NCBI RefSeq assembly: GCF_030817655.1
Contig: NZ_JAUSZM010000003.1
Coordinates: forward strand, 6,448,001-6,512,000
Direction of reading: 5' to 3'
Origin: Streptomyces sp. V4I2
Lineage (GTDB): Bacteria > Actinomycetota > Actinomycetes > Streptomycetales > Streptomycetaceae
DNA: 64,000 bases
A program made the position numbers and the translations under genes. Below are positions 31,866 to 55,699 of the stretch, in pieces. Below the pieces are notes generated by a model. The model ran no database searches and was not told the DNA's origin. It saw nothing but the letters and a program-made list of their open reading frames with translations. How positions within the stretch are numbered: the first letter of the stretch is position 1; every line of letters starts with the position of its first letter.

Positions 31866-32281
31866 GAGCCGCATCTTAGACGGCGGAAGCGGTGTGCCGG
31901 TCCGCCTCAAGGGGCTCTGGAACACCTGGCGTTCGCTCGGTGAGCGAGCACAAAGGCGACATCTCCGGGTGGTTGGTGCGAAGGGTGACCCGGCAGGTGT
32001 GGGTGGGTCGGCGGCGATACCGGGCGCCCTCGCGACGCCTACGGTACGGCTGACCTCGGACGGCGGACCGGACGACGCCGTCGTCGTCCGGTCCGCGCGC
32101 ACCTGGACGGCGACCGGGTCTGTGCCCTGCGTCTCCATGGCCTGCTCCTCCTGTCAGACTGGACGGCGCCTGCGGCTGTTGTCACGTTGTGTGCACCGGT
32201 GATCACCGTGGTGTCCCACGGGAGGATCCGGCGGTGTGCGGGGCGGGTAGAATCGGTTCGGACGGCTGCAGTCGCCTCGTT
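31866..32281. other. Gap upstream of rplM with an orphan Shine-Dalgarno-ATG
   Basis: On the minus strand ATG 32138 stands 6 nt after AGGAGGAG and opens METQGTDPVAVQVRADRTTT, which has normal Streptomyces codon bias for about 40 codons and then loses it before the gene at 31865. It could be the N-terminus of a longer version of that gene or a remnant of a lost gene. The plus strand shows TAGAAT at 32248-32253 as a possible extra -10 for rplM. Confidence 0.4.
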
Positions 32282-48261: not shown

Positions 48262-48285
48262 GAATCGATTCGACTGAATCGATTC
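48262..48285. promoter_or_regulatory. Two GAATCGATTC palindromes between divergent genes
   Basis: Perfect 10-bp palindromes at 48262-48271 and 48276-48285, centres 14 bp apart, lie 67 nt before the beta-helix start. Nearby GAGCTCGT repeats (48213-48232) add to a non-random upstream region. They are likely operators, probably of a carbon-source regulator. Confidence 0.55.
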
Positions 48286-52347: not shown

Positions 52348-53595
52348 GTGAGCGAGAGCAGTGCGGAGGTCGTCGCGGACGCCGCCGCGGCCGTCGCCTC
52401 CGCCACGGGGGCGGCCGCCGGGTGGCGCCGGGCGACCGGCATCGCGGGCGCCGCCATAGGAGTGGTCGCCGCGGGCGCGGCCGCCGGAGTCGCCATAGAG
52501 CGGCTCACCGTCGGCCGCGGCATGCGCAAGAAGGCACGGCTCGCGCTCGACTCGACCGGGCCGTACGGCGCGTTGCGCGGCATGCCCGGCAAGGCGTACG
52601 CCGACGACGGCACCGAGCTGTACTACGAGGTCGACGACGTGGAACCGGAAGGCGGCTCGGCGCCCCGGCGCCGGCGGCTCTTCGGCCGCAAGGCGCCCCT
52701 GCCCGTCACCGTCGTCTTCAGCCACGGCTACTGCCTCAGCCAGGACTCCTGGCACTTCCAGCGCGCCGCCCTGCGGGGCGTCGTACGGACCGTGCACTGG
52801 GACCAGCGCAGCCACGGCCGGTCCGCGCGGGGCGTGGCCCAGATGCAGGACGACGTGCCGGTCAGCATCGAGCAGCTCGGCCGCGACCTGAAGGCCGTCA
52901 TCGACGCCGCCGTGCCGGAGGGACCGATCGTGCTGGTCGGGCACTCCATGGGCGGCATGACCGTCATGGCCCTCGCCGACCAGTACCCCGAGCTGATCCG
53001 CGAGCGGGTGGTGGCGGCCGCCCTGGTCGGCACGTCGTCCGGGCGGCTCGGCGAGGTGAACTTCGGTCTGCCCGTCGCCGGCGTGAACGCCGTACGGCGG
53101 GTGCTGCCCGGCGTACTGAGGGCGCTGGGGCAGCAGGCCGCCCTGGTGGAGAAGGGCCGCCGGGCCACCGCCGACCTGTTCGCCGGGGTCATCAAGCGGT
53201 ACTCCTTCGCCTCCCGGGACGTCGACCCGGCCGTCGTCCGGTTCGCCGAGCGGATGATCGAGGGCACGCCCATCGACGTGGTCGCCGAGTACTACCCGGC
53301 GTTCAACGACCACGACAAGACCGAGGCCCTCGCCCTCTTCACGGACATGCCGGTGCTCGTGCTGGCCGGAGTGGGGGACCTCGTCACGCCCAGCGAGCAC
53401 AGCGAGGCCATCGCCGACCTGCTGCCGGACGCCGAGCTGGTGCTCGTGCCGGACGCCGGGCACCTGGTCATGCTGGAACACCCGGAAGTGGTCACCGACC
53501 GCCTCGCCGACCTGCTCACCCGGGCGGGTGCCGTACCCGCAGGCGCTACCGTGAATGGTTATGGAAGCACCAGCAGCGCCGCACGACCCGGCTGA
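52348..53595 (+). CDS. Alpha/beta hydrolase
   Basis: A 415-aa hydrolase. The N-terminal 75 residues include a hydrophobic Ala/Gly/Val segment (about 31-52, IAGAAIGVVAAGAAAGVAIE) that may anchor it to the membrane. The core shows the oxyanion strand HGYCLSQDSWHF, the nucleophile elbow VGHSMGGMTVMALADQ and the catalytic His in PDAGHLVMLEHPEVVTDRLA. GTG 52348 follows AGAGGAGCGG. Substrate unknown. This gene regularly stands between alr and tsaE in Streptomyces; its last 41 nt overlap tsaE. Confidence 0.9.
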   Translation: MSESSAEVVADAAAAVASATGAAAGWRRATGIAGAAIGVVAAGAAAGVAIERLTVGRGMRKKARLALDSTGPYGALRGMPGKAYADDGTELYYEVDDVEPEGGSAPRRRRLFGRKAPLPVTVVFSHGYCLSQDSWHFQRAALRGVVRTVHWDQRSHGRSARGVAQMQDDVPVSIEQLGRDLKAVIDAAVPEGPIVLVGHSMGGMTVMALADQYPELIRERVVAAALVGTSSGRLGEVNFGLPVAGVNAVRRVLPGVLRALGQQAALVEKGRRATADLFAGVIKRYSFASRDVDPAVVRFAERMIEGTPIDVVAEYYPAFNDHDKTEALALFTDMPVLVLAGVGDLVTPSEHSEAIADLLPDAELVLVPDAGHLVMLEHPEVVTDRLADLLTRAGAVPAGATVNGYGSTSSAARPG

Positions 53596-54073
53596 CACCG
53601 AGCTGACCGTCACCTCCCCCGACCAGATGCGCGAGTTGGGGCGCCGCCTCGCCAAACTGCTGCGTGCCGGCGACCTCGTGATGCTCACCGGGGAGCTGGG
53701 CGCGGGCAAGACGACGCTGAGCCGGGGGCTCGGCGAGGGGCTCGGCGTCCGCGGGGCCGTGACGTCCCCGACCTTCGTGATCGCCCGTGTGCATCCGTCC
53801 CTCGGGGGCGGGCCGCCGCTCGTCCACGTCGACGCGTACCGCCTGGGCGGCGGGCTCGACGAGATGGAGGACCTCGACCTCGACGTCTCGCTGCCCGAGT
53901 CCGTGATCGTCGTGGAGTGGGGCGAGGGCAAGGTCGAGGAGCTGACCGACGACCGGCTGGAGGTCGTCATCCACCGGGCCGTCGGCGATACGACGGACGA
54001 GGTGCGGCACGTGACGCTGACCGGGCTGGGGGAGCGGTGGGCGGCGGTGGATCTGAGCGTGCTCGCCGCCTGA
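53555..54073 (+). CDS. tsaE: tRNA t6A synthesis ATPase TsaE
   Basis: TsaE of 172 aa (about 170 from the second ATG at 53561). P-loop LTGELGAGKTTLSRGLGEGL; VTSPTFVIARVHPSLGGGPP; LVHVDAYRLGGGLDEMEDLD. It drives turnover of the TsaB-TsaD complex that makes N6-threonylcarbamoyl-A37 on ANN-decoding tRNAs. The start lies inside the end of the hydrolase gene. tsaB and tsaD follow about 1 kb later, after two small genes. Confidence 0.94.
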   Translation: MVMEAPAAPHDPADTELTVTSPDQMRELGRRLAKLLRAGDLVMLTGELGAGKTTLSRGLGEGLGVRGAVTSPTFVIARVHPSLGGGPPLVHVDAYRLGGGLDEMEDLDLDVSLPESVIVVEWGEGKVEELTDDRLEVVIHRAVGDTTDEVRHVTLTGLGERWAAVDLSVLAA

Positions 54074-54156
54074 CCGCACGGTTGATGAATGTTCCGACAA
54101 GACGTCGGCAAGATGTTGCGTTGCGCGTCTTCGGCGTGGTCACATGGTACCCAGTC

Positions 54157-54180
54157 CGTAGTTAGGTCTACCTAACTACG
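54157..54180. promoter_or_regulatory. 24-bp palindrome upstream of a 56-codon gene
   Basis: Arms CGTAGTTAGGT and ACCTAACTACG are perfect 11-bp inverted repeats around CT. It ends 27 nt before the small gene at 54208. TTAGGT/ACCTAA half-sites recall the DmdR1/IdeR iron box, but the spacing differs. A strong operator candidate. Confidence 0.65.
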
Positions 54181-54207
54181 CCCGCCCCCGAACTTCAGGA
54201 GGCGTCC

Positions 54208-54378
54208 ATGTCGGCCACCGAGAACAAGCCGGAGCCGCGGCCCTACGCGGTCGTCGCCGGCGTGTCCATGCGCGATCTGCTGGCGTCCTGCGCGGCCGCG
54301 AGTGCCGTGTCCACGCCGCCGCGCCTGCCCGATCCCGAAACGCTGCGGGCGCCGTCGGAGCACCGTAAGGCCGCCTAG
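54208..54378 (+). CDS. Small hypothetical protein, 56 aa
   Basis: ATG 54208 is preceded by a full AGGAGG at 7-nt spacing. The product opens MSATENKPEPRPYAVVAGVS, goes on MRDLLASCAAASAVSTPPRL and ends EHRKAA. Third positions are G/C-rich throughout, which supports real coding. There is no signal peptide or span. No family recognised. The palindrome at 54157-54180 suggests its own regulation. Its stop overlaps the stop of the convergent gene by 3 nt. Confidence 0.75.
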   Translation: MSATENKPEPRPYAVVAGVSMRDLLASCAAASAVSTPPRLPDPETLRAPSEHRKAA

Positions 54379-54929
54379 CGGATCACGACGACCCTCACGC
54401 CGATCGTCGCGAACTTCCACAGCGCGTCGCCGTCCGCCCGGGACTCCCGGACACCGCCCGCCTTGACCGTCGGTGCGGGCGCCGGCGTGGAGCCGTCCAC
54501 CGCCGCGCTGAAGCCGACCGGCACGCCGTTCACGGTGGTGAAGCGCACGACGTGTTCGACGGGGATGCCGTCGGTGCCGGTGATCCGGTTCGAGCGGGAC
54601 GTGACCGCGTAGGTGCCCGGGGCCGGGTCGACGGTGCCCGGGGTGACCTTGAAGGTGCGGCTGACCCTGTCGCCCCGGCCGACCAGCCACACCCGGTCGT
54701 CGTCCACCGAGTACACGACCCGTTCACCCGTACCGGAGCGCTCGGGCGGCGCGGCCGGGTCCGGCACGTCCCGGGGCGCCTTCGAGGCGGCCGCCGCGAG
54801 CGCGCCGTCGGCGTCGGGGCTGCCGAGGTCCGCGGGGACGCCCGCCGAGGCCTGGTAGGCGAGGAAGCCGACCGTCGCCAGCGCCGTCACGGTGAGCCCG
54901 GCCACGATTCCCGAGCTGCTGCCTGCCAC
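54375..54929 (-). CDS. Membrane-anchored protein with degenerate YkuD-like domain
   Basis: A 184-aa protein. An N-terminal hydrophobic segment (GIVAGLTVTALATVGFLAYQ, residues about 7-26) serves as a signal anchor. The outside part reads like an L,D-transpeptidase domain: ERVVYSVDDDRVWLV, TVDPAPGTYAVTSRSNRITG, NGVPVGFSAAVDGSTP, VRESRADGDALWKFATIGVR. At the places where YkuD enzymes have the catalytic His and the SHGC Cys, there is Ser and no Cys at all. So it is probably a non-catalytic relative, perhaps a wall-binding or regulatory protein. GTG after GAGGTGG. Confidence 0.7.
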   Translation of the reverse strand: MAGSSSGIVAGLTVTALATVGFLAYQASAGVPADLGSPDADGALAAAASKAPRDVPDPAAPPERSGTGERVVYSVDDDRVWLVGRGDRVSRTFKVTPGTVDPAPGTYAVTSRSNRITGTDGIPVEHVVRFTTVNGVPVGFSAAVDGSTPAPAPTVKAGGVRESRADGDALWKFATIGVRVVVIR

Positions 54930-55030
54930 CGTCGTCCACCTCAGTCTTGTGTAGTACGTCCCGCTTTGCCGCGACGGTAGCAGCAGGTGACGGCCCGATC
55001 TGTACGGCCGTGCCCGCGGCGCAGGAGCCG

Positions 55031-55036
55031 TAGGCT
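55031..55036 (+). promoter_or_regulatory. -10 of a leaderless-type start for tsaB
   Basis: TAGGCT ends 6 nt before GTG 55043; no Shine-Dalgarno is present. Confidence 0.5.
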
Positions 55037-55042
55037 GTTTGC

Positions 55043-55699
55043 GTGCTCTTGCTCGCTCTGGATACCGCCACCCCCGCCGTCACCGTCGCGTTGTACGACG
55101 GCACGGACGTCATCGCCTCGTCGAGTCAGGTGGACGCGCGCCGGCACGGTGAGCTGCTGCTGCCGGCCGTCGACCGTCTGCTCGTCGAGGCCGGTCTCAC
55201 GCTGGACGCCGTCACCGGTGTCGTCGTCGGCATCGGCCCCGGCCCCTACACCGGGCTGCGCGTCGGCCTGATGACCGCGGACACCTTCGGGCTCGCCCTC
55301 GGTGTGCCCGTGCACGGTGTGTGCACGCTCGACGGCCTCGCGTACGCGGCCGACATCGAGAAGGGCCCCTTCGTCGTGGCGACCGACGCCCGGCGCAAGG
55401 AGGTCTACTGGGCGAAGTACGCCGACTCCCGCACCCGCCTCACCGACCCCGCGGTCGACCGGCCCGCCGACATCGCCGACCGGGTCGCCGGACTGCCGGC
55501 CGTCGGCGCGGGCGCGCTGCTCTACCCGGACACCTTCCCGGTCGCGCACGAGCCCGAGCACGTGTCCGCCGCGGCGCTCGCGCGGCTGGCCGCCGAGAGA
55601 CTGGCGGCGGGCGAGGAACTGCCCGCTCCGCGGCCGCTGTACCTGCGCCGCCCCGACGCCCAGGTCCCCAAGAACTACAAGGTGGTCACCCCCAAGTGA
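55043..55699 (+). CDS. tsaB: tRNA t6A synthesis protein TsaB
   Basis: TsaB of 218 aa, an inactive TsaD-like scaffold of the t6A complex. LLLALDTATPAVTVALYDGT opens the ASKHA fold; VVVGIGPGPYTGLRVGLMTA is the conserved motif near residue 70. First gene of a four-gene overlapping run (tsaB-rimI-tsaD-57292), with a leaderless-type promoter. The stop overlaps the rimI GTG. Confidence 0.95.
   Translation: MLLLALDTATPAVTVALYDGTDVIASSSQVDARRHGELLLPAVDRLLVEAGLTLDAVTGVVVGIGPGPYTGLRVGLMTADTFGLALGVPVHGVCTLDGLAYAADIEKGPFVVATDARRKEVYWAKYADSRTRLTDPAVDRPADIADRVAGLPAVGAGALLYPDTFPVAHEPEHVSAAALARLAAERLAAGEELPAPRPLYLRRPDAQVPKNYKVVTPK

Follow-up and report, generated by a model that had tools for sequence, protein, structure and literature searches.

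A small-protein gene conserved in Streptomyces and the candidate single-palindrome iron box upstream of it

What reads a perfect palindrome placed directly upstream of a gene for a protein of only 56 amino acids? The question is raised by a locus of Streptomyces sp. V4I2, located in the window, that is, the whole stretch of 64,000 nucleotides analyzed here. At 54157-54180, CGTAGTTAGGTCTACCTAACTACG forms a perfect palindrome (P) with 11-bp arms and a 2-bp centre, followed by an AGGAGG ribosome-binding site and a frame of 56 codons. The original prediction had described these three features, and all of them are real and correctly positioned. It had further proposed a dedicated repressor and a condition-specific small protein. 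The features of the locus are the following:

53555-54073, plus strand: tsaE, the upstream neighbor (Pfam TsaE, 1e-32)
54094-54108, plus strand: element U, CCGACA-N3-YGTCGG, an imperfect dyad
54108-54120, plus strand: GCAA-N4-TTGC-G, between U and B
54135-54147, plus strand: element B, CGTGGTCACATGG, with promoter or activator contact as candidate roles
54157-54180, no strand assigned: palindrome P, proposed as a single-palindrome iron box or DmdR1-type operator
54161-54176: core of P, GTTAGG-TCTA-CCTAAC
54197-54202, plus strand: ribosome-binding site AGGAGG
54208-54378, plus strand: small gene of 56 codons (56 aa), ATG at 54208 and TAG at 54376-54378
54375-54929, minus strand: convergent conserved gene of 184 aa, its stop codon overlapping that of the small gene; presumed position of SCO4749

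The small gene was found in 99 of the 101 Streptomyces genomes, in one copy each, using a profile of 38 proteins (E 0.001). A draw across the order recovered it in 44 of 45 Streptomyces genomes, two of which have a second, weaker match. In a draw across the family (E 0.01), 85 of 101 genomes and 14 of 17 genera carried it, several of the hits being weak. Loci were obtained from 13 genera besides that of the window, and 11 of them have the expected neighbors; the exceptions are g6 (L166), which lacks these neighbors, and g21 (L145), in which the script found no start codon. The other families of the same order gave no convincing hit in 15 genomes, and the one weak hit outside the family (G104, E 0.007) has neither tsaE nor tsaB beside it. 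In a search of named genomes, 37 loci were retrieved, 36 from Streptomyces and one from a genome labelled Actinobacteria bacterium, with tsaE and tsaB near all 37. The ribosome site is AGGAGG in 35 of 38 rows and GGGAGG in the other three, the starts having been picked by script for the best such site.

Locus counts refer to 154 distinct loci, from which L165 and L166 (weak hits, no synteny), L145 (the missing start codon), L038 (a duplicate of the window), loci with no profile hit and identical duplicates had been dropped. In 141 of them tsaE precedes the small gene and the convergent gene follows it, with tsaB farther on, and in 10 at least one neighbor was not located in the stretch retrieved or inside the distance limits. 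In the remaining three the small-gene unit is inverted: in L007 (4001-4168) and L102 (1501-1668) the small gene alone is turned between its neighbors, and in L164 (1492-1662) the inversion takes the convergent gene along. All three keep U and P, with up to one mismatch in U, and B is full in L007 and L102 and present with 10 of its 13 bases in L164. Since these inverted loci retain the upstream elements, the small gene seems to constitute its own transcription unit.

In Streptomyces coelicolor, TsaE is SCO4747 and TsaB is SCO4750 (PMC4932002), and thus the small gene should occupy the position of SCO4748. SCO4749 has been described as a member of a convergent pair with overlapping transcripts that is altered when RNase III is missing (PMC3765725); its convergent partner would be the small gene, which hints that the latter is transcribed. 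Text searches with SCO4748 or with peptide strings found no literature on the small gene, and it is in none of the titles listed for Streptomyces small proteins, iron starvation or DmdR1. The convergent 184-aa gene has no Pfam or NCBIfam match at E 1.

The length of P, taken alone, is weak evidence of function, since arms of at least 11 bp occurred in 3 of 10 windows simulated with a first-order Markov model. Within the window, the only inverted repeat (gap of up to 6) with longer arms is a perfect, GC-rich hairpin at 32063-32096 with 15-bp arms; this longest short-gap inverted repeat of the window is a possible terminator. Among the 154 loci, the core GTTAGG-N4-CCTAAC is complete (12/12 bases) in 124, has 11 bases in 16 and 10 bases in four. 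The other 10 loci have nine core bases or fewer, that is, no recognizable site, and keep the small gene. A palindrome not conserved in relatives, or a frame broken in them, had been named as fatal to the original prediction; both were looked for and the finding survived, with a regulated small-protein gene well supported by the conservation.

P is accompanied by a second set of conserved elements. U matches at least 10 of its 11 fixed bases in 149 of the 154 loci and begins 41 bp before B in most of them. It is followed by AA-NN-T-N-TTGC-G, in which the four TTGC positions are conserved in 148 (T), 145 (T), 147 (G) and 145 (C) of 149 loci; TTGC could be a -35-like element. The 14-nt spacer from TTGC to B is poorly conserved in sequence and nearly constant in length, and this fixed spacing of variable sequence has the appearance of promoter or activator geometry. 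The distance from B to P ranges from 5 to 15 bp (mostly 12-13) and the start codon follows P after 28-75 bp, mostly after about 47; given the variable spacing up to it, P looks like an operator. The module formed by U, TTGC and B (54094-54147) is rigidly spaced, about as conserved as P, and intact in the genome only at the small-gene promoter. The combination of U and TTGC gives one exact match in the genome and four others with three mismatches, against five for the reversed control, and U by itself does not clearly exceed its control (16 vs 14). B, with up to one mismatch, is found in 17 places including the small-gene promoter (reversed control 3), and the other 16 are all devoid of the surrounding module. 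No shared regulon was found through U, U plus TTGC or B in other promoters of the genome.

A palindrome in a leader may also act in the mRNA, as a hairpin for stability or attenuation. The leader folds better than its shuffles (z = -3.1, equalled by 1 of 200), with P as a 10-bp stem, and it does so because of the palindrome. At two variable pairs, G-T mismatches outnumber A-C ones (43 vs 12 and 30 vs 8). However, the column frequencies predict more of both kinds (G-T/A-C 53/21 and 35/13), so no wobble preference exists; the variable outer pairs of P carry mismatches of both kinds. The core pairs are near-invariant instead of covarying, compensatory covariation was not seen in the stem, the ribosome site lies outside it and the leader has no Rfam match. 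In 144 sites with at least 10 of the 12 core bases, a selection that itself favors invariance, T1, A3, G4 and G5 of the half-site and their partners are identical in all 144, and the other positions are the same in 130-141. Near-invariant half-sites lacking a wobble preference favor recognition as DNA, perhaps with a minor role in the RNA, and a hairpin as the main function of P appears very improbable. In the Rfam scan of 53900-55100, a viral-leader match at 54924-54982 stayed below threshold (21.9 vs 70 bits) and was taken as chance.

In the 11.1-Mb genome, TTAGG-N4-CCTAA occurs at 13 sites and the reversed pattern at one. Neighbors were determined by a Pfam scan of 20 flanking frames, picked by codon-position GC and not comprising every frame. 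Seven of the 12 other sites adjoin genes with iron- or haem-type Pfam names: SIP, haem oxygenase, Peripla_BP_2, a decarboxylase (with SIP on the other side), SIP, ferrochelatase and Lys/Orn oxygenase. Three more are located at 9.28-9.30 Mb, a stretch they share with the Lys/Orn oxygenase gene, and the last two lie by DoxX and by an aminoglycoside acetyltransferase. The latter site, TTAGGTTTACCTAA (L188, G000:C3:2759606-2759619), adjoins an aminoglycoside 3-N-acetyltransferase gene and is the sole one of the 12 with no iron link in the frames scanned.

The exact 16-mer GTTAGGTNNACCTAAC was searched in the 101 Streptomyces genomes and gave 70 sites in 63 genomes, the reversed control giving none. 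Fifty-one of these sites are within 200 bp of the small gene, and 19 are elsewhere (L223 and L224, both small-gene sites, are left out of the 19). According to a Pfam scan of 27 chosen flanking frames, 16 of the 19 are next to genes linked to iron, haem, siderophores or DmdR1: eight by SIP, four by FecCD or Peripla_BP_2, one each by ferrochelatase, aconitase and DoxX, and one by a chorismate-binding/AMP-binding pair, presumably the start of a siderophore cluster. L212, L215 and L219 have no iron-type Pfam match among the flanking frames scanned; a SLAC1 channel gene is found near L219. In two genomes, a single-palindrome iron-box-like site, GTTAGGTGACCCTAAC in L195 (G000:C3:7892261-7892276) and GTTAGGTGAACCTAAC in L218, has ferrochelatase on one side and a divergent MFS transporter on the other.

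These neighborhoods bear directly on the dedicated repressor of the original prediction, which would be unrelated to iron. The concentration of exact copies at the small gene (51 of 70) would suit such a protein, but the remaining copies are mostly iron-linked (16 of 19), the immediate neighbors are tsaE and the convergent gene and include no regulator, and the one DtxR-family gene detected in the genome is of the iron-repressor type. A dedicated repressor is therefore disfavored, and we regard it as highly unlikely.

The DtxR-family gene in question was the only one detected (PF02742). It passes the NCBIfam model NF053665, the actinobacterial equivalog of the iron-dependent repressor DtxR, with 380 bits vs a cut-off of 290, and carries N-terminal, metal-binding and SH3-type domains. 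We infer that it is DmdR1. The genome has three Nramp genes; a separate DtxR-type manganese regulator was considered and rejected, as the single DtxR-family gene found is of the iron type.

Like the 19-bp iron box of DtxR/IdeR/DmdR1, TTAGGTTAG(G/C)CTAACCTAA, P contains TTAGG-N4-CCTAA, that is, inverted iron-box half-sites N4 apart, is located upstream of a gene start and has genomic copies at iron genes. Unlike that box, it has one of the two overlapping palindromes. DtxR-type regulators bind as two dimers, and we read the iron box TTAGGTTAGSCTAACCTAA as a pair of overlapping TTAGG-N4-CCTAA-like palindromes, shifted by 5 bp and each serving one dimer. P corresponds to a single unit of this pair, and the second, overlapping unit is missing. 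The full 19-bp double-palindrome consensus is not matched by P (12/19 in both registers), which would make it a single-palindrome variant and not a canonical iron box. The original prediction had noted halves reminiscent of iron boxes in a different geometry: the difference holds as far as the missing unit is concerned, but TTAGG-N4-CCTAA itself is the geometry of one iron-box unit, and the link to iron is stronger than was then thought.

In accordance with this form, the small-gene sites score a mean of 13.3 against the 19-bp box (138 loci; random flanks 12.9), and the 16 other iron-linked exact sites a mean of 16.4. The 12/19 of P is the lowest score of the 13 TTAGG-N4-CCTAA sites in its genome. 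The poorest boxes of the exact-palindrome set are P and, with 14/19 each, those by aconitase (L088), DoxX (L211) and ferrochelatase (L218), which less clearly seem to be of the single-palindrome form too. A low score does not exclude binding of a DtxR-type protein at P, since the 31 motifs listed for DtxR of Corynebacterium glutamicum match the iron box at 11-16 of 19 positions (PMC1382209). In the dtxR mutant of C. glutamicum, expression decreased for three genes that have motifs of this kind (PMC1382209), so the direction of regulation at P is a guess. A 14-bp form has been printed as the iron box before SVEN_1503 of Streptomyces venezuelae, TTAGGTCAGCCTAA (PMC6401478). It begins 57 nt before the start codon there, and the one here 46 nt before; that box differs from P in heading a gene for a candidate siderophore enzyme and is itself a putative site. 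Among the literature matches listed for the short motif string, none contains the full palindrome strings, and the titles deal with other subjects.

DmdR1 sites have been predicted at the DoxX gene SCO2350 and by the aconitase SCO5999, and the expression of both genes was reported not to correlate with that of dmdR1 (PMC12161575). This leaves two options, a different mode of action of DmdR1 at such sites or their recognition by another protein. On the second supposition, a regulator other than DmdR1 would recognize the single palindrome GTTAGGTNNACCTAAC and control a small iron-linked set (the small gene, ferrochelatase, aconitase and DoxX), separate from the siderophore genes with their two-dimer iron boxes. 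The poor 19-bp boxes shared by P and the aconitase, DoxX and ferrochelatase sites, as well as the expression data, agree with such a set, but the exact 16-mer is also found by eight SIP and four Fec/siderophore-binding genes, the search for regulators, which covered the DtxR family, gave no candidate for the role, and we consider a separate regulator unlikely. Further points against DmdR1 at P are the 10 loci that keep the small gene with no recognizable palindrome and the main text of that DmdR1 regulon paper, in which gene names of the SCO47xx range do not appear (PMC12161575).

The probable reading, judged from sequence comparison, is that P is a single-palindrome operator of DmdR1 (IdeR/DtxR family) and that the small gene is iron-responsive, with a disordered modulator as its product. 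Upstream of P is the promoter-like module, whose conservation is unusual. When Fe(II) suffices, P would be occupied by a DmdR1 dimer and transcription of the small gene blocked; a drop in iron would allow its expression. We picture the product as a largely disordered small protein that has a single conserved helix and probably binds or modulates another protein; the Ala-Ala at its end may serve as a signal for fast turnover.

The protein alignment shows a conserved core, VSMRDLLASCAAAxAVSTPP, between flanks that vary in composition and length. The pN/pS ratio, a rough figure obtained from distant pairs and a gappy alignment, is 0.44 in the core, where non-synonymous change is constrained, and 0.99 outside, with no measurable constraint. 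AlphaFold2 places a single helix at residues 21-35 with the rest at low confidence (mean pLDDT 65), so that a short helix in disordered flanks is predicted; such an architecture points to a peptide that docks onto a larger partner. The 56-aa product has no Pfam model above cut-off and NCBIfam gives nothing. Homology to DUF6374 (PF19901) was rejected (E 0.11, 12.6 vs a curated cut-off of 25 bits); this domain was found in one of 148 genomes of the class, which is outside the family of the window. C-terminal Ala-Ala is present in 145 of 154 proteins. This near-invariant terminus is similar to termini that ClpX recognizes. ClgR and PopR have been shown to be substrates of ClpXP1P2 in Streptomyces (PMC9765437).

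Our best guess for the role of the product is that of a fast-acting, short-lived modulator under iron limitation. Bacillus subtilis offers a comparison in FbpA, FbpB and FbpC, which are Fur-regulated small basic proteins tied to the sRNA FsrA. The common feature is a very small protein under an iron regulator, as proposed here, and the differences lie in phylum, regulator and sequence.

A bolder but rather doubtful extension can be formulated, in which the small protein is a core effector of iron economy throughout the Streptomycetaceae, controlled by a single-palindrome iron box and, through U and B, also by a further regulator or sigma factor of its own. The single-palindrome class would then be common to ferrochelatase, aconitase and DoxX and be read differently from the two-dimer boxes of siderophore genes, and the rigid U/B module would be the part seen only at the small gene. 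Nearly every Streptomyces genome sampled keeps the small gene, most loci keep its promoter elements, and no Pfam or NCBIfam family covers it. If it is controlled by iron, the iron regulon, known to date from siderophores, uptake and oxidative stress, would gain a small-protein arm, and the question of one palindrome or two in iron boxes would become testable.

Another symmetrical sequence of the window is found at 48262-48285, where GAATCGATTC-GACT-GAATCGATTC forms an inverted repeat with perfect 10-bp arms, each arm being a palindrome too.
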